From Pseudarthrobacter oxydans (GTDB lineage Bacteria > Actinomycetota > Actinomycetes > Actinomycetales > Micrococcaceae): a DNA stretch of 64,000 nt. Positions 16,737 to 30,396 of this stretch are shown here, one piece after another (within the stretch, counting starts at the first letter, position 1; every line of letters starts with the position of its first letter). The stretch is from assembly GCF_013314975.1 (NCBI RefSeq), contig NZ_JABTYH010000001.1, forward strand, positions 248,001 to 312,000. The letters run 5' to 3'. The position numbers were made by a program, and so were the translations under genes. The notes beneath the pieces are model-generated. The model was not told the origin of the DNA, ran no database searches, and saw only the letters and a list, made by a program, of their open reading frames with translations.

Positions 16737-18743
16737 CTAGGAAGCCCAGTCGGAGTCCCCGAAGGCCTGTCCCCGGAAGTGTGCCCGTAGATACTCCCCC
16801 ACCACCGCGGCGCCAAGATTCCCTGCCTCGGGAGCGACAACCCGGCCGCCCACCCTGCGCACCATGCGCTGGACGAACCGTTCCAGGCTGGGGTCGGCCC
16901 CCAGCCGGAAGAATGTGGCCTGCGTGCCGGCCCTGCCCAGCCGGTCGAGCTCCGCGACCGTGACTCGGATGGTTTCCGGGTCGGAGGGCCAGCAGAACCA
17001 CGCCTCGCCCTCCGGCAGCAGATGGGCTGTAGGTTCGCCGTCGGTCACCACCAGGAGGACAGGCTGCATGGACGGGTGTCTGCGGAAGAAACGGCCTGCA
17101 AGCAGCAATCCGTGATGCAGGTTGGTTCCCTGCTCCCGCAGCGGCGGGAGGGCGGTGAGTCCCTCGATGTCCATTGCCTGGGCATGGCGGCCGAACGTGA
17201 TCAGTTCCAGCCTGTCGCCGCGGAAACGGGTGGAGACCAGGTGGTGCAGCGCCAGCGCGGTGCGTTTCATCGGAACCCATCTCCCCTCGGCCGCCATCGA
17301 AAAGGACACATCCACAAGGAGGACGACGGCGGCCTGCGTCCGCGCTTCAGTTTCGCTCACTTCGATGTCCGCCGGGGTGAGGCGGAGGCCGCTGCCAGGG
17401 GTTCCGCCGCCGGCAGCGGTGCGGCTGATCGCGTTGGTCAGCGTGCGGGTGACGTCCCAGGGCTCTGCGTCCCCGAACTCCCACTGACGGCTGGATCCGG
17501 TCTGCTCCCCGGCCGCGCCGGCAACCCGGGTATCCCGGCGCCCCTGCCGCCCTGACAGCTGCTTGGCCGTATCCCGCAGCAGGGACTTCCCCAGCCGCCG
17601 CATGGCCTGCGGTGAGAGCCGCAGGTCCCCGTCCGCGCCCCGCCTCAGGTACCCGCCGTCCTGCATGGCCCGTTCGATGTCGGCCAGCGTGCGGGCGGTG
17701 ACGGCGGCGTCCTGCCCGACCTGGCGCGCCAGGGCATCCAGGTCCAGGTCGCCGAGGGTGGAGCCGTTGTAGGACTGGGAGAGCTGTTCGGCCAGCCCGT
17801 CCAGTTCGGCGATGTCCTGGAGCACACCGGTGCCGTCGCCGAGGCCCAGCCCTTCCTGGCCCTCGAAGCGTTCCGAGCCTGTCCAGTCTTCGCCGGGGCG
17901 GAGGGCGCGCAGGTTATCGTCGAGTTGGCCGAGCTGGGCCATGAGTTCCGGCGAGCCGAACGCCTGGGCCGAGAGGTTCATCAGCTCCTCCCGCTGCTCC
18001 CGGGACATGGACTGCAGGAGCCGCTGGGCAGCAGCGGCCCGCGCGGCAAGGGCGTCAATCAGCTCCTCAACCGACTGGGGGTTTTCAGGGAAGAAGCTGC
18101 CGTGGCGGGCCATGAACTCCTGGAAGTCGGCGTCGGTATCCTCGCCGCGCCGGTGTTTGTCCAGCAGCGTGTTCAGGTCGCGCAGCATGGCGCTGACAGC
18201 TTCCCGGTCCTGCTCCGTGGCACCCTCCAGAGCCTGCTTCATGCCGGCGAACCGCTGGTCCAGGGCCTCGCGGCCCAGCAGGTCCTTGATCCGTTCGTAG
18301 GCTTCCCGTGCAGCGCCGGACTGCCAGTCGTAAGAGGCCAGGTCGTTCACCGCCGCGGCTGTGGATGCGGGCAGGTTCTGCAGCTGCAGCTCCCGGAAGG
18401 CGCGCTCCGTGTTGTCCATCATGGCATCGCGGGCCAGCTGCTTTCGTTCCTCCAGAACGGCAGTGTCCAGGAGTTTCTTGACCTCGTTGAGGGTGCCGTC
18501 CAGGTTGTGGCGGGCCAGCAGGTCATTGCGGTGCTGCTGGACGCGCCTGGCGAGGTCATCCAGTCCTTCCCGGTTCCGCCCGCCGCGCCGGAGGAACTCC
18601 TGCAGGGCGTGGCGCGGCGAGTACCCCGCCATGACGTCCTCGGCGACGGCGTCCAGCGCCTCGGCGAGGTCAACAGGGGGCGCGAGCGGATCCGGACCGC
18701 CCGTGTACCGGCCGTACCTGGCGGAATGGTTATGGATGTTCAT
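16737..18743 (-). CDS. VWA-domain protein paired with a MoxR-type ATPase
   Basis: A 668-residue protein. The first ~460 residues are helical, charged and rich in Arg/Glu/Leu. The C-terminal ~190 residues form a von Willebrand A domain with the MIDAS metal site DVSFS at 478-482, a later TDGEPTAHL and GTNLHHGL. It lies 53 bp downstream of the AAA+ gene at 18797-20185. Such MoxR-ATPase/VWA pairs are known to act as chaperone- or chelatase-like machines that remodel or metallate client proteins; the client here is not encoded nearby. No signal peptide is seen, so it is cytoplasmic. Confidence 0.85.
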   Translation of the reverse strand: MNIHNHSARYGRYTGGPDPLAPPVDLAEALDAVAEDVMAGYSPRHALQEFLRRGGRNREGLDDLARRVQQHRNDLLARHNLDGTLNEVKKLLDTAVLEERKQLARDAMMDNTERAFRELQLQNLPASTAAAVNDLASYDWQSGAAREAYERIKDLLGREALDQRFAGMKQALEGATEQDREAVSAMLRDLNTLLDKHRRGEDTDADFQEFMARHGSFFPENPQSVEELIDALAARAAAAQRLLQSMSREQREELMNLSAQAFGSPELMAQLGQLDDNLRALRPGEDWTGSERFEGQEGLGLGDGTGVLQDIAELDGLAEQLSQSYNGSTLGDLDLDALARQVGQDAAVTARTLADIERAMQDGGYLRRGADGDLRLSPQAMRRLGKSLLRDTAKQLSGRQGRRDTRVAGAAGEQTGSSRQWEFGDAEPWDVTRTLTNAISRTAAGGGTPGSGLRLTPADIEVSETEARTQAAVVLLVDVSFSMAAEGRWVPMKRTALALHHLVSTRFRGDRLELITFGRHAQAMDIEGLTALPPLREQGTNLHHGLLLAGRFFRRHPSMQPVLLVVTDGEPTAHLLPEGEAWFCWPSDPETIRVTVAELDRLGRAGTQATFFRLGADPSLERFVQRMVRRVGGRVVAPEAGNLGAAVVGEYLRAHFRGQAFGDSDWAS

Positions 18744-18796
18744 GGTGCCGCCCGTCCCTCGCTTCAGCCATCTGCCCGGCCACGCACGGTGGCGCC

Positions 18797-20185
18797 CTAC
18801 CCGTACACCGTTTCTTCGTCGTCGGACTCCTTGGAGATCCGCCGGGCCAGGTAGAGCCCTTCCAGCGCCAGTTCGATGGCGGCGGCCCGCTGGCCCTCGT
18901 TCCCGGCGCCGAGGCGGCTGCCGATCTCGTCGTAGAGCCCGGACCCGTTCAAGGACGGCAGGTTCCCGAGGAATTCACGTGCTGTCACGTGCTCCCCGGT
19001 GGTCACGGTGGTGTGCCCGTCCAGCGCTGCCACCAGCGGGCCCAGGTCAAGGCCCTGGAAATGCGCCCGCACGGCTTCGGCCGTGGCCGTGCGCAGCAGG
19101 TGGTCAAGGACGGCCTGTTCACGCCCTTCCTCACCGGATTCGAATTCGATCTTGCCGCTGAGGACTTCAACGGCGGTGTCCAGGTCCACGATCCGCGCGA
19201 CGGCCTCGGCTTCGCCGCGCATGCTGGCTCGGCGGAGGGCCGCGGCGGCCACTGTTTCGGCGCCGGCAATGGCGAACCGCGCCGACACCCCGGAGGTCTG
19301 GTTGATCGCCGGGGACTGCCTCAGCGCACGGGTGTAGCGGGCCAGGATTTCGAGGATCACCGGCGGGACGTCGGCCACCAGGTGCCCCTCCTGCCGGATC
19401 ACGGACACCTCGTCGTCGAGCTCTATGGGGTAATGCGTCCTGATCTCCGCGCCGAAGCGGTCCTTCAGCGGCGTGATGATCCTGCCGCGGTTGGTGTAGT
19501 CCTCCGGGTTGGCGGACGCGACCACCAGCACGTCCAGCGGAAGCCGGAGCACGTAGCCGCGGATCTGGATGTCCCGCTCCTCCATCACGTTGAGCATGGA
19601 CACCTGGATCCGTTCGGCAAGGTCCGGCAGTTCGTTGATGGCGATGATGCCGCGGTTGGAGCGCGGGACAAGGCCGTAGTGGATGGTTTCCGGGTCCCCG
19701 AGGCGCCGCCCCTCAGCCACCCGCATCGGGTCGACGTCGCCAATGAGGTCCGCAACGGAGGTGTCCGGCGTCGCGAGTTTCTCCACGTAGCGTTCCGAAC
19801 GGTGGCGCCAGGCTACCCGCAGCCGGTCGCCCTCGGTCAGGGCAAGGGCGCGGGAATGCTCGGTAATCGGATCGAACGGGTGTTCATTCAGTTCGGACCC
19901 CTCGATGATGGGTGACCATTCATCCAGGAGCCCGGCCAGGGTGCGCAGGAGCCGCGTCTTGCCCTGCCCCCGCTCGCCGAGCAGGACCACGTCATGCCCG
20001 GCAAGCAGGGCACGCTCGAGCTGGGGAAGCACCGTCCGGCCGAAGCCGTAGATCCCCGGCCACGGATCCTTGCCGGCCGCGAGCGCGGCGAGCAGGTTTC
20101 CGCGGATTTCCTGGCGCAGGTCCTTGAGGACGTGGCCGGAGGCACGCAATTCACCAGCGGTGAAGATATCGGGACGATCAGTCAC
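18797..20185 (-). CDS. MoxR/chelatase-type AAA+ ATPase
   Basis: A 462-residue AAA+ protein starting at GTG 20185 (TDRPDIFTAGEL), preceded by GGTGGAGGG. Walker A is GERGQGKT (residues 70-77). Walker B-like IIAINELPDLAERIQVSMLNVMEERDIQIRGY follows, and VVASANPEDYTNRGRIITPLKDRF holds sensor 1 and the arginine finger region. It is the magnesium-chelatase ChlI/MoxR-like group. It is the first gene of a pair with the VWA protein, with which it should form a functional complex. Divergent from the glycosyltransferase at 20294. Confidence 0.88.
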   Translation of the reverse strand: MTDRPDIFTAGELRASGHVLKDLRQEIRGNLLAALAAGKDPWPGIYGFGRTVLPQLERALLAGHDVVLLGERGQGKTRLLRTLAGLLDEWSPIIEGSELNEHPFDPITEHSRALALTEGDRLRVAWRHRSERYVEKLATPDTSVADLIGDVDPMRVAEGRRLGDPETIHYGLVPRSNRGIIAINELPDLAERIQVSMLNVMEERDIQIRGYVLRLPLDVLVVASANPEDYTNRGRIITPLKDRFGAEIRTHYPIELDDEVSVIRQEGHLVADVPPVILEILARYTRALRQSPAINQTSGVSARFAIAGAETVAAAALRRASMRGEAEAVARIVDLDTAVEVLSGKIEFESGEEGREQAVLDHLLRTATAEAVRAHFQGLDLGPLVAALDGHTTVTTGEHVTAREFLGNLPSLNGSGLYDEIGSRLGAGNEGQRAAAIELALEGLYLARRISKESDDEETVYG

Positions 20186-20293
20186 CCCTCCACCGTAGCC
20201 CCGCACTATGGGTGACAAAAGCCCCTGCCGGTGCGCGCTTCCATCCCCCAGCATTGGTGCAGAGGTTGCCGCGTGGAACATGGAGGTGATGGC

Positions 20294-26603: not shown

Positions 26604-26858
26604 CAGAGTCCCTTCACGATGCAGGTTGTGGAGCCGTTGCAGTGCCCAATGCCTGGCGCGCCGCCCGGCCCGCGCATTACGGAAAACGATAGCGCGGGGT
26701 GGACGATTTTCGGTCCATGCGCTGCACGCAGTAACGCTGATGTAACGCTTCCGGGCGTAAAACTGGCGACGTGTGGGACCACCACGCCGCTGATACGTTC
26801 ACTGCCGCAGCTGCGCCACTGGCGCAGACCGTTCCGTGTAGAGGCCAAGGAGCCCAGG

Positions 26859-28088
26859 ATGTCCAACCTGTTCAACCAGAAAATCATGATTCTGCGCGCG
26901 CCTTCCCTCGGCGCAACCCGTGACCCGTTCGATGGACCGGGGGCGTCGCCGGGGCTCGAAAGCACCGCCCAGAACATCGCCGAACGCGCTGTCAGCATGA
27001 CGGTGGAAAGTGACGAGAACCCCTCCGGCTCAACTCTCAACGCCCTGCGGAACGACCCCACGGTCCTCGGCTTCGCTCCCGCCATGCCCATGAAACTCAT
27101 CGAACCCTTCGACGCCGATACTGCACCGTCCGCGGCGGCAACGTGGGGCGTCAAGGCCGTGGGCGCACACACCTCGCCGTTCTCCGGTGCCGGGGTGACG
27201 GTCGCGGTCCTGGACACCGGCATCGCCGCCAACCACCCGGCCTTCGCCGGCGTCAACCTGGTCACAAAAGACTTCACCGGCGCCGGCAGCGCCGAAGACG
27301 ACAACGGCCATGGCACCCACTGCGCCGGCACGATCTTTGGCCGCGACATCTCAGGGCAGAGGATCGGCGTCGCAACGGGCGTCCAGAAAGCGGTGATCGG
27401 CAAAGTTCTCGGAGGCCCCAACGGCGGCAGCAGCGACATCCTGGCCTCCGCCATGCTCTGGGCCGCCGACAACGGCGCCCACGTCATCTCCATGTCGCTG
27501 GGCATCGACTTCCCGGGCTGGGTGGACGAGCTGGTGAAGGTGCACGGCCTGTCCATTCCCGCCGCCACCTCCATAGCGCTTGAAGGCTACCGTGCCAACG
27601 TGCGGCTGTTCGAACAGCTCGCCAACCTTCTCAACGCGCGGGCCTCCGTCGCCCAGACGACGATCGTGGTCGCAGCCGCCGGCAATGAGAGCGAACGCAC
27701 CGGCAACCCCGCATATGAGATCAATGTGGCCCCACCGGCCGCGGCCTTCGGTATTACGTCCGTGGCCGCCCTGGCCGACGGCGGCGGCGGACTTACCGTG
27801 GCACCCTTCTCGAACACGATGGCCACGGTGGCCGGTCCCGGCGTCGGGGTCTTCAGTGCCTGGCTCAACGGCGGAACGAAAACGATCAGCGGCACCAGCA
27901 TGGCCACCCCGCACGTGGCTGGCGTGGCGGCCCTGTGGGCTGAACGGCTCCTGGCGCAGGGCCCCCTCAGCCCCGTGCTCCTCCAGGCCAAACTCATCGC
28001 GTCCGGAACGTTCAAGCCCCTCAAGGCCGGCACGGACCCCGTGGACGTTGGGGCGGGCCTGATCCAGGCGCCAACAAATGCAAACTAG
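26859..28088 (+). CDS. Leaderless subtilisin-like S8 serine protease
   Basis: A 409-residue S8 peptidase with all catalytic residues: Asp 119 in VAVLDTGIA, His 151 in NGHGTHCAG, oxyanion Asn 276 in VVAAAGNES, and Ser 347 in SGTSMATPHVAG. ATG 26859 is preceded by AAGGAGC. No signal peptide or lipobox is visible, so it is predicted to act inside the cell or be released by lysis. The first ~95 residues form a short prodomain-like region. A 50-residue insertion (about 215-265) lies between the substrate-binding part and the oxyanion Asn. The next gene, 67 bp downstream on the same strand, is a protease-nuclease fusion, so the two probably form one unit. Confidence 0.92.
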   Translation: MSNLFNQKIMILRAPSLGATRDPFDGPGASPGLESTAQNIAERAVSMTVESDENPSGSTLNALRNDPTVLGFAPAMPMKLIEPFDADTAPSAAATWGVKAVGAHTSPFSGAGVTVAVLDTGIAANHPAFAGVNLVTKDFTGAGSAEDDNGHGTHCAGTIFGRDISGQRIGVATGVQKAVIGKVLGGPNGGSSDILASAMLWAADNGAHVISMSLGIDFPGWVDELVKVHGLSIPAATSIALEGYRANVRLFEQLANLLNARASVAQTTIVVAAAGNESERTGNPAYEINVAPPAAAFGITSVAALADGGGGLTVAPFSNTMATVAGPGVGVFSAWLNGGTKTISGTSMATPHVAGVAALWAERLLAQGPLSPVLLQAKLIASGTFKPLKAGTDPVDVGAGLIQAPTNAN

Positions 28089-28155
28089 CGCGGCCAGGCG
28101 TTCCATCCGACGCTGTCAGTCGCCGGCCTGAAGTAGTAGTCCAAGGAGCGGACCC

Positions 28156-30396
28156 ATGGTCATACCGGACGACGTGCTCACCGCCACCCAGGCGCGCTTC
28201 CAGGCACGCAAAGGTCCACGCGCGGGGACGGAGGAAAAGATCGCGGAGGCACACACCCCGCAGGGAAGCATCCTCAACGTGGACGCGCCGGAACGGGTGG
28301 AACTGCGCAGCCGTCGCGTCATGCGCCAGCCGGTTGTAAGGGACGCGCTCAAGGCGACGGCGGAAACCTCGCCGGCAGCCCGTGGCCAGGTGCGGGATGA
28401 GCTGGTGCTGGAGCGGATTATCGGCGGGAACAACCTGCTGGGCATCGCTTTCCTGGAGTTGGGCACGGCGGTGGCACGCAGTGTGGGGAGGGTCATTGTC
28501 CGTGACCGGTTCCAGATCCGCTCCTTCGGCACGGGGTTCATGATCTCGCCGCGCCTGGCCCTGACGAACAACCACGTGCTGGCAGACGCCCAGTCTGCCC
28601 GCTTTTCCCGGCTGGAATTCAACTTCCAAAACGGCGTCAGCGGCCTTCCGCTGGCTGCATCGCAGTTTGACCTCGAGCCGGACACCTTCTTCCGGACGGA
28701 CTCCGGACTGGATGTCACCGTGGTGGCGGTGGCAGCGGCCTCACGTCCGGACGGGGCGGGTGTCTCGGTTCCGCTGGCCGGCTTCGGCTTCAACCGCACA
28801 TCGAAGGAGCAGGGCAAGATCCTGCTGGGAGAGTCCATCAACATCATCCAGCACCCGGAAGGCCAGGAGAAGCAGCTCGCGCTGCAGCAGAACGAACTCA
28901 TCGACCGCTTTGACCAGTTCCTGCACTACCACACGGACACCTCTCCAGGCTCCTCCGGTTCACCGCTCTTCAACAACCAGTGGGAAGTCCTGGGCCTGCA
29001 CCATTCCGGCGTCCCTGCCCGCAATGCGGCAGGCGACATCCTGACGGTGGACGGCACCGTGTGGGACAGCACGCAGGATGAGCTGCGGATCCAGTGGGTG
29101 GCCAATGAGGGAATCCGGATCAGCAGCATCCTGGCCTGGCTGGGAGCGAACGCCGACGGCATGACCAACGAAGAACGGGCCCTGCTGGAGGAAGCACTGA
29201 ACCCGCCTCCCCTGCCGGCCGACCCGCCCCACCCGGCAGAACTTCTGGACCCGGTAGAACTGGACCCGGTGGTGGAACGGCAGGGCCCGGTGGAGGTCCA
29301 ACTGCCTCAACCGGTGGAGCAGCCAGTCGCCACGGCGGAGGGGGCCGTGTCCCTCACCATCCCCCTGCACATCACGGTCCGGCTCGGTGCAGTGCAGGCG
29401 GCACACGAACCGGCCCCCTCGTCCGCAGGCCGGACCGCGGGCCCTGGCAGCGGGGACGCCGTTGGTCCGGGCAGCGGGGATGCCATCGGCACGGGAAGTG
29501 CGCTGGCCGAGGAAGCCGTGGCGATAGACCCCGACTACGAGGGAAGAAAGGGCTACGACCCCGACTTCCTGGATGTGCCTGTACCGCTGCCGGTGCTCAC
29601 GGCGGAACAGCGTGCGGAGGCGGCGCAGAACCGTCGCCCGGCCCAGGGGCAGGACCCGACAGTGCTGAACTACCATCACTTCAGCCTCGTCATGCACCGC
29701 AGCAGGCGGCTGGCCCTCTACACAGCCGTGAACGTCGATGGCCGGCTCAGCCAGTCCCCCAAGCGGGACCGCGACAAGTGGTACTTCGACCCCCGGCTGG
29801 ACCGGTCGGAGCAGATTGGCGGGGACCTCTATGCCGGCAACGACTTTGACCGCGGCCACCTCGTCCGCCGCCTGGATCCGGCCTGGGGCCCCGACGCCGC
29901 TGCAAAGGCTGCGAACGACGATACGTTCCACTTCACCAATTGCTCCCCGCAGCACAAGAAGTTCAACCAGGGTGCGTCTTTGTGGGCCGGCCTGGAAGAC
30001 TACGTGCTGGACACGGCGAAGGCTGAAAAGCTGCGGCTCAGTGTGTTTACCGGCCCTGTCTTCACAGCCAATGATCCGGAGTTCCAGGCCGCCCGCATCC
30101 CGCTGTCGTTCTGGAAGATGCTCGTCTTCCAGCGTCCGGACGGCAGCCATTCCGCCAGCGCGTACATGATCAGCCAGCATGAACTGGTGGAGGGCATTCT
30201 CAGGGAGGCCTTCACACCGGTCACTTTCCAGGTACCCATCCGCAGGATCAGTGAACTCACCGGACTGGACTTCGGCCATCTCTTCGGCTGGGACCCGATG
30301 AACGACGAATTCGAACCGCTCCCCCGGGCCCAGGAAGCGCTGGCCACACCAACTCCCGCCCGTGAGCTCCGTACGTTGGAGGACGTGCAGTTGTAG
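28156..30396 (+). CDS. Trypsin-like protease fused to NUC1-type DNA/RNA non-specific endonuclease
   Basis: A 746-residue two-enzyme fusion after a good AAGGAG. Residues ~100-330 form a trypsin-like (V8/Glu-endopeptidase-like) domain with His 140 (LTNNHVLAD), Asp 186 (SGLDVTVVA) and Ser 267 (TSPGSSGSPLF). Residues ~345-500 are a Pro/Ala/Gly-rich linker with a GPGSGDA repeat. Residues ~505-735 form a DNA/RNA non-specific (NUC1/Endonuclease_NS) domain with DRGHLVRR (Asp 565, His 568) and the metal-site pattern NCSPQHKKFNQG (Asn 595, Asn 604). Every catalytic residue I can identify is present. No signal peptide, membrane helix or secretion tag is seen. Paired with the S8 protease; role unknown. 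A protease-gated nuclease is inference. Confidence 0.92.
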   Translation: MVIPDDVLTATQARFQARKGPRAGTEEKIAEAHTPQGSILNVDAPERVELRSRRVMRQPVVRDALKATAETSPAARGQVRDELVLERIIGGNNLLGIAFLELGTAVARSVGRVIVRDRFQIRSFGTGFMISPRLALTNNHVLADAQSARFSRLEFNFQNGVSGLPLAASQFDLEPDTFFRTDSGLDVTVVAVAAASRPDGAGVSVPLAGFGFNRTSKEQGKILLGESINIIQHPEGQEKQLALQQNELIDRFDQFLHYHTDTSPGSSGSPLFNNQWEVLGLHHSGVPARNAAGDILTVDGTVWDSTQDELRIQWVANEGIRISSILAWLGANADGMTNEERALLEEALNPPPLPADPPHPAELLDPVELDPVVERQGPVEVQLPQPVEQPVATAEGAVSLTIPLHITVRLGAVQAAHEPAPSSAGRTAGPGSGDAVGPGSGDAIGTGSALAEEAVAIDPDYEGRKGYDPDFLDVPVPLPVLTAEQRAEAAQNRRPAQGQDPTVLNYHHFSLVMHRSRRLALYTAVNVDGRLSQSPKRDRDKWYFDPRLDRSEQIGGDLYAGNDFDRGHLVRRLDPAWGPDAAAKAANDDTFHFTNCSPQHKKFNQGASLWAGLEDYVLDTAKAEKLRLSVFTGPVFTANDPEFQAARIPLSFWKMLVFQRPDGSHSASAYMISQHELVEGILREAFTPVTFQVPIRRISELTGLDFGHLFGWDPMNDEFEPLPRAQEALATPTPARELRTLEDVQL

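Follow-up and report, generated by a model that had tools for sequence, protein, structure and literature searches.

A leaderless S8 protease gene beside a trypsin-endonuclease fusion gene in Pseudarthrobacter oxydans: a candidate protease-gated nuclease with an exchangeable partner protease

The window analyzed here is a stretch of 64,000 nucleotides from the 4.69-Mb genome of Pseudarthrobacter oxydans (NCBI RefSeq assembly GCF_013314975.1, contig NZ_JABTYH010000001.1, positions 248,001 to 312,000 of the forward strand). It carries an S8 protease gene followed, after a gap of 67 bp on the same strand, by a gene encoding a trypsin-like protease fused to a nuclease of the Endonuclease_NS family (Table 1). 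An earlier reading of the sequence, referred to as the original prediction, had proposed this pair as a unit in which an intracellular nuclease is released by proteolysis; the coordinates, strands, lengths (409 and 746 residues) and 67-bp gap it gave proved exact on recheck.

Table 1. Features of the gene pair, in positions of the window
Feature	Position	Strand	Basis
AAGGAG ribosome-binding site, S8 gene	26847..26852	+	read from sequence
Leaderless S8 (subtilisin-family) protease, 409 aa	26859..28088	+	Pfam, triad D119/H151/S347
AAGGAG ribosome-binding site, fusion gene	28143..28148	+	read from sequence
Trypsin-Endonuclease_NS fusion, 746 aa	28156..30396	+	Pfam, AlphaFold2
Helical N-terminal region, residues 1-112	28156..28491	+	alignment and model
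Trypsin-like domain, ~residues 108-345 (H140, D186, S267; T262/H282 pair)	28477..29190	+	
Disordered linker, ~residues 346-455 (predicted strands 397-402, 404-409)	29191..29520	+	model
E453 codon (boundary of linker and nuclease; proposed cut site)	29512..29514	+	
Endonuclease_NS domain, ~residues 460-716 (D565, H568, N595, N604, E614)	29533..30303	+	

A constrained pair of leaderless genes

AAGGAG precedes both start codons, as claimed for the ribosome sites, and a terminator scan returned no forward terminator-like site between the two genes. The claim that neither protein has a signal peptide or membrane helix also held by hydropathy, judged with a simple 19-residue scan and not with a trained predictor. 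Within the first 60 residues, the highest 19-residue means were 0.43 (S8) and -0.16 (fusion); over the whole proteins they reached 1.47 and 1.41, compared with 1.96 and 2.33 for two signal-like neighbors of another fusion locus (L095). In 51 aligned fusions no stretch exceeded 1.76, with 1.66 (L096) as the highest value near the N-terminus. The ratio of nonsynonymous to synonymous substitution rates (dN/dS) against three pair-bearing relatives was 0.015-0.07 for the S8 gene and 0.13-0.15 for the fusion gene, indicating purifying selection; within the fusion, it amounted to 0.09-0.11 for the nuclease, 0.06-0.12 for the protease half and 0.22-0.38 for the linker as the loosest part. Both genes are real and constrained.

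The S8 protein matches Peptidase_S8 of Pfam (E=4.9e-36), its triad residues are found at the predicted positions, and the S8 protein of P. polychromogenes is 99% identical to it. Residues 1 to ~107 may represent a pro-segment, a hint that is all we took from its low-confidence structure model (mean predicted local distance difference test score, pLDDT, of 60.5; alignment of 9 sequences). An assignment as mycosin of a type VII secretion system was rejected, considering a TIGR03921 score of 79.8 bits versus a cut-off of 278.75 and the lack of a hydrophobic segment serving as signal peptide or membrane anchor. Other genomes of the genus harbor a different S8 protease (37-40% identical) near a nuclease-tailed protein (L046:8136-9461, L049:2940-4271, L050:3665-4990), and by inference these may be mycosin/toxin loci of type VII secretion systems.

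The fusion protein and its linker glutamate

Pfam assigned Trypsin_2 (E=3.1e-20, residues 125-281) and Endonuclease_NS (E=3.5e-48, residues 497-707) to the fusion. The predicted architecture of protease plus nuclease was thereby confirmed, while its label “NUC1-type” is corrected to Endonuclease_NS, the family of EndoG, Serratia nuclease and NucA. Congruently, all three are among the Foldseek matches of the nuclease half, which is not of the metallo-β-lactamase (MBL) fold by Pfam or Foldseek; for the protease half, FAM111A was ranked first and Staphylococcus Esp 33rd. The catalytic residues comprise H140, D186 and S267 in the trypsin half and D565, H568, N604 and E614 in the nuclease. Residue conservation was evaluated in 83 aligned fusions, each scoring >100 bits on both halves and three of them being second copies of loci. 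S267, T262, H282, H568, N595, N604 and E614 are invariant throughout this set, H140 and D186 are absent only from one truncated copy, and D565 is replaced by Ala in a single fusion. T262 (position -5) and H282 (~+15), counted from the catalytic Ser, form what we take to be a Glu-specificity pair, following the rule for V8 protease. The trypsin half thus carries the T/H signature of a V8/Esp-type glutamyl endopeptidase (S1B) and presumably shares its preference for glutamate.

The AlphaFold2 model of the fusion shows two confident domains (blocks mostly >85, residues 61-100 at 54-75, predicted template modeling score 0.53) joined by a linker with pLDDT <50 for residues 355-405 and 409-455, which in the model looks like a leash, with no gate visible. 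The N-terminal region is poorly conserved except for E86, R112 and an ERIIGGNNLL...FLE segment. A death-fold N-terminus was considered and discarded: the region 1-107 is helical in the model, but conservation is poor over the first ~75 residues, and many relatives have a shorter version of this part. A trypsinogen-type activation site, which R87-IIGG visibly resembles, was set aside as well, since the GG varies among the fusions and S267 is preceded by Ser. Classical trypsins have Asp before the catalytic Ser.

For the linker, counts were made in 80 non-duplicate fusions. E453, at its very end, is the best conserved glutamate of the linker and is Glu in 58 of the 80; both fusions with a divergent trypsin half have it too. 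None of 23 stand-alone nucleases from related genomes has Glu at the corresponding position, the segment being wholly missing in 10 of them. Overall, the glutamate content is 6.9% in the linkers and 5.4% in the domains. On the sequence level, the conservation of E453 fits, without proving, a Glu-specific protease that would free its own nuclease. Stand-alone Endonuclease_NS open reading frames (ORFs) are common in the genus (L009-L031, e.g., L010:1453-2274), mostly 273-302 residues long, and many of them appear leaderless on inspection of the ORF starts.

Distribution, partner proteases and payloads

Among 396 genomes across the phylum, 17 match the fusion and three, the window's included, do so over both halves; in a further one (G201, locus L053), Endonuclease_NS is combined with a trypsin domain distinct from this one. 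A profile scan of an 84,980-species collection yielded 292 relatives, of which the best 80 correspond to 79 loci. These 80 are distributed over Actinomycetota, Cyanobacteria, Planctomycetes, Acidobacteria, Bacteroidetes and Proteobacteria. Where an ORF with a recognized domain was present (78 loci), both halves reside in one ORF in 73 cases and in separate ORFs in two, and the trypsin half occurs without this nuclease in three. Fusions divided between separate ORFs were noted in L134:7785-9917 and L106:4186-7190 and would reflect true gene fission, decay or sequencing error. On plasmids, 117 of 72,556 records match the fusion, seven of them over at least 80% of its length. Candidate origins from phages or other viruses were dismissed: tblastn against 50,697 phage records gave zero matches, and a viral contig scan with six short patterns yielded no relative that could be confirmed.

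Among 119 genomes (the window's own included), 53 match the fusion, most through the nuclease half alone, and the five full-length matches among them all adjoin an S8 gene in the same order. The expected co-occurrence of both genes gave a mixed picture: draws of 121 genus genomes contain five adjacent pairs, but the genes are often apart, with S8 found in eight and the full fusion in six of these genomes, which speaks against a strict two-gene unit. In the wider collection, S8 is present in the available flanks of nine of the 79 fusion loci. The trees of both genes split the pair members into the same two subgroups, with most S8 forks being weak. An SMP-30 gene lies beside the pair in all five pair-bearing genomes and is itself found in 29 of 73 genomes; comparison of the flanks for mobility established no clear empty site for the pair.

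These occurrences bear on the possibility that the S8 protein is an independent intracellular protease, upstream by chance, and that the fusion alone is the functional unit. Three of the eight S8-bearing genus genomes have no full fusion anywhere (G534 without any fusion match, G004 and G550 with the nuclease half only), and a fusion without close S8 is found in G520, where the best S8 match is a 55-residue piece (E=3e-4), and in A. hankyongi (L069), whose neighborhood is in common with that of the pair-bearing locus L070. The narrow range of spacing, 35-77 bp throughout the 10 measured loci with the pair (one genome counted twice), as well as S8 genes near the fusion in distant taxa, argue against a chance arrangement, which we regard as very improbable. 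In G534, a membrane protein and a protein matching Peptidase_C1 are encoded near the S8 gene without fusion (L061:8058-16487).

The nine fusion loci with S8 in their flanks belong to the Arthrobacter group (five), Calothrix, two Mycobacterium and Aldersonia. The Calothrix S8 gene is located 3.2 kb upstream of the fusion and its product is 54% identical to the window S8; the two are separated by a gene whose product combines CpXC, ricin-type lectin and crystallin-like domains (L133:5367-7760). In both Mycobacterium loci, the S8 gene (38% identical) is found ~0.4 kb downstream on the opposite strand. These clusters of fusion and S8 gene span L100:6704-16161 and L101:7341-12373, the former also containing two genes with Tle1-like phospholipase domains and an MBL-fold gene by Pfam. 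The Aldersonia S8 (36% identical) is accompanied by M43 and M28 peptidases, and in L084 fusion, M43, M28 and S8 are all encoded on one strand. In Rhodococcus, Gordonia and Williamsia, M43 directly follows the fusion, M28 comes after it in several loci, and M36 plus M28 precede the divergent fusions of L043 and L044. Four Rhodococcus loci encode a CHAT-AAA protein directly upstream (L083:4039-7758, L087:4801-7758, L095:4868-7825, L097:4036-7767), the one of L095 with a weak but above cut-off S8 match near its C-terminus. At the trypsin-only locus L109, the adjoining protein has a weak astacin match below the Pfam cut-off.

In total, 23 of 78 loci have a peptidase or DUF3616 partner within 4 kb of the fusion. 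At a distance of 4-8 kb these families gave no match, with ~8 kb on both sides available at only 44 of the 78. The partner profiles were trained on proteins from the same loci, which favors finding them, and the S8 profile on genus proteins. A Pfam tally counted M43 six, S8 four and M28 two times among 122 nearest neighbors, while the 25 most frequent families among 106 outer genes include none of the three; it omits 11 of 133 nearest neighbors for size, including two CHAT proteins (L083, L097). Deliberately excluded were also L064-L068 and L071, which are the six loci nearest to the window, and L114, which has no complete domain ORF. These counts make a neighboring peptidase a recurrent feature, with S8 as one choice among several. 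Where found, the neighboring protease is, judged by gene content, interchangeable (S8, M43, M28, M36 or CHAT), and its recurrence beside the fusion favors the idea of a proteolytic cascade more than the exact S8 pair.

The payload varies as well. The same trypsin half ends in Endonuclease I on a Streptomyces plasmid (L037) and in Nostocales (L139), in a weak lipase-like region below the Pfam cut-off in L055, and in a C-terminus without Pfam match in L054 and L056. In these proteins the protease is the constant part and the payload changes.

The ten proteins flanking the pair comprise an SMP-30 protein, an aldo/keto reductase, a cyclodeaminase, two hydrolases, an AAA and a VWA protein, a GmrSD_C-type nuclease, a melibiase and a LacI regulator. 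PADLOC returned one weak match among them, in which the GmrSD_C protein hit a candidate family. Flank content and this single match give no sign of a defense island, the setting that the original prediction had suggested to look for. The AAA (Mg-chelatase-like) gene adjoining the VWA-domain gene (window 16737-20281, minus strand) probably forms an ordinary pair, though it is reminiscent of the core seen in other predicted conflict systems.

As an alternative, the pair could encode hydrolases for nutrient scavenging or competition, released by lysis or an unrecognized export route, with digestive enzymes as protease partners. The M43, M28, M36 and S8 families are mostly secreted enzymes, no recognized inhibitor gene lies alongside, the flanks are metabolic with the GmrSD_C-type nuclease and the melibiase downstream, and one fusion (Cupriavidus) is located among type II secretion genes. 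This explanation is at odds with the leaderless window proteins and the low hydropathy maxima of the 51 aligned fusions. Cargo of an extracellular contractile injection system was rejected, the sheath family PF04984 giving zero matches in the window's genome (control positive in three of 14 genomes). We consider the scavenging explanation unlikely.

A candidate protease-gated nuclease and its relation to known systems

A prediction close to the release idea was published by Kaur, Burroughs, Iyer and Aravind (eLife 2020, PMC7159879), whose NucA-trypsin “System 3” comprises a proteolytic cascade deploying a nuclease; a 2021 paper of the same line also refers to it. Based on our data, the original proposal of nuclease release by the S8 protease or by self-cleavage is partly supported, with a protease-released intracellular nuclease as the best reading. 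We give an about even chance to the pair being a cytoplasmic, normally silent effector of the NucA-trypsin kind, in which a Glu-preferring protease frees a tethered nuclease and the S8 protein holds the partner-protease slot. The trypsin half would act as a V8/Esp-type protease carrying an EndoG/NucA-type nuclease on a long disordered tether. A trigger, via the S8 partner, crowding of copies, or both, would activate it; cleavage at or near E453 would then liberate the nuclease, which would degrade nucleic acid of the cell and of any invader. The S8 protein would fill the slot that is taken elsewhere by M43, M28, M36 or CHAT. We infer the cytoplasmic location, Glu specificity, cut at E453, role of S8 as upstream activator and function in death or defense.

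Several observations weigh against this proposal. Silence of the nuclease is assumed, as the model gives no sign of a covered nuclease active site. Position 453 is not Glu in 22 of the 80 fusions, D458 just past the disordered part is slightly better kept (Asp in 61 of 80), and the at least one Glu in every linker would mostly be given by chance at a median length of 83 residues. Considering the ten stand-alone nucleases without the segment, E453 may mark a fusion-specific segment and not a cut site. Furthermore, 55 of the 78 loci have none of the partner families, S8 and fusion are each found without the other within the genus, no defense link appeared among the ten flanking proteins, and no immunity-like gene was recognized among the adjacent genes, with no family-level search made for one. 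Finally, in the comparable protein LypC the nuclease is dispensable for lysis (PMC13236601).

LypC (ACL94044.1) is part of LypABC, a CARD-NLR-like lysis system of Caulobacter (Nat Microbiol 2026), and consists of a trypsin-like domain, a flexible linker and an endonuclease. According to its point mutants, the protease is essential for lysis, and one Caulobacter homologue has no nuclease. By analogy, the protease could be the real effector of our fusion, cutting a host protein or activating a lytic factor, with the nuclease contributing stability or a secondary role; the occurrence of the trypsin half with other C-terminal parts is in line with this. Such a role for the protease appears doubtful given that H568, N595, N604 and E614 are kept in all 83 fusions and that dN/dS is equally low in the nuclease and protease halves. 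The window fusion resembles LypC in the one-protein layout described for the latter and in its locus outside a defense island. Unlike the window pair, LypC works with LypA (CARD-trypsin-ATPase) and LypB (NLR-like ATPase). Neither was found among the ten flanking proteins; with genus proteins taken as such as queries, the LypA-like one matched only the fusion's own trypsin domain and the LypB-like one nothing. By layout, the divergent trypsin lineage of L043/L044 may be closer to LypC, one copy lying beside STAND and trypsin genes. This cluster in the same genus (G058, L043:4520-17494) encodes M36, M28, the divergent trypsin-nuclease fusion, DUF3616, a STAND-like ATPase in which EAD1 scores near the threshold, and two more trypsin proteins, and is possibly a LypABC-like system plus metallopeptidases. 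Its STAND protein as query found no match at E<=1 in the window's genome, a search without positive control.

With respect to System 3, the window shares the fusion of Endonuclease_NS with a trypsin-like peptidase and the presence of additional peptidases such as S8, which in some System 3 cases resides in the same polypeptide (PMC7159879). It differs by a separate upstream S8 gene, a fusion without membrane segment, an actinobacterial host, and a genome without EAD1, LypA-like or LypB-like match; for EAD1, which along with STAND occurs in a subset of System 3 only, zero matches were obtained at E<=0.1, the control matching in only two of 14 genomes and in none over the cut-off. Moreover, 45 systems, mostly alphaproteobacterial, were counted there versus the 292 relatives across several phyla found here.

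Pro-nucleases unlocked by a partner protease are also known from anti-phage immunity: Tuck et al. (Science 2025, PMC12799240) describe trypsin-gated MBL nucleases in Hachiman and AVAST (HamM, Avs1) and caspase-nuclease (canu) loci. Their nucleases belong to the MBL superfamily, unlike that of the window, and are encoded by separate genes, and HamM is cut after isoleucine. A single Tryp-Endonuclease_NS protein of the same domain order, Fusobacterium NP_604177.1, was listed in a domain survey (BMC Genomics 2008, PMC2605481), whose accessible part gives neither an S8 partner nor a mechanism.

No paper on the S8 and fusion pair, or on swapping of the partner protease, was found in our searches of the open-licence PubMed Central literature. 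The statement that no system with exactly this pair has been characterized thus stands for the pair but not for the fusion, for which the tested, like-built LypC and a published prediction mentioning S8 exist. New are the explicit self-release model derived from the T/H Glu pair and the boundary Glu, the exchangeable partner protease and the exchangeable payload. If the release model is true, the locus would allow bacterial killing by a protease-gated nuclease to be studied in a compact unit of two genes, in which cut site (E453), cutter (S267 domain) and presumed activator (S347 protease) are each addressable by one point mutation. It would further suggest a widespread family, in six phyla and on plasmids, in which both the activating protease and the payload can be swapped and some members have no recognized NLR gene close by, in contrast to the NLR-linked form investigated to date. 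A far-reaching and rather speculative extension would be a sensor-independent, self-arming nuclease triggered by an interchangeable partner protease and not by an NLR, whose leash could carry other killers elsewhere (Endonuclease I, perhaps a lipase-like part), making up a modular zymogen-style death cascade without NTPase. In comparison with the known systems, we place the pair in the NucA-trypsin family, as a variant that has no recognized NLR in its vicinity and in which S8 occupies an exchangeable partner slot.

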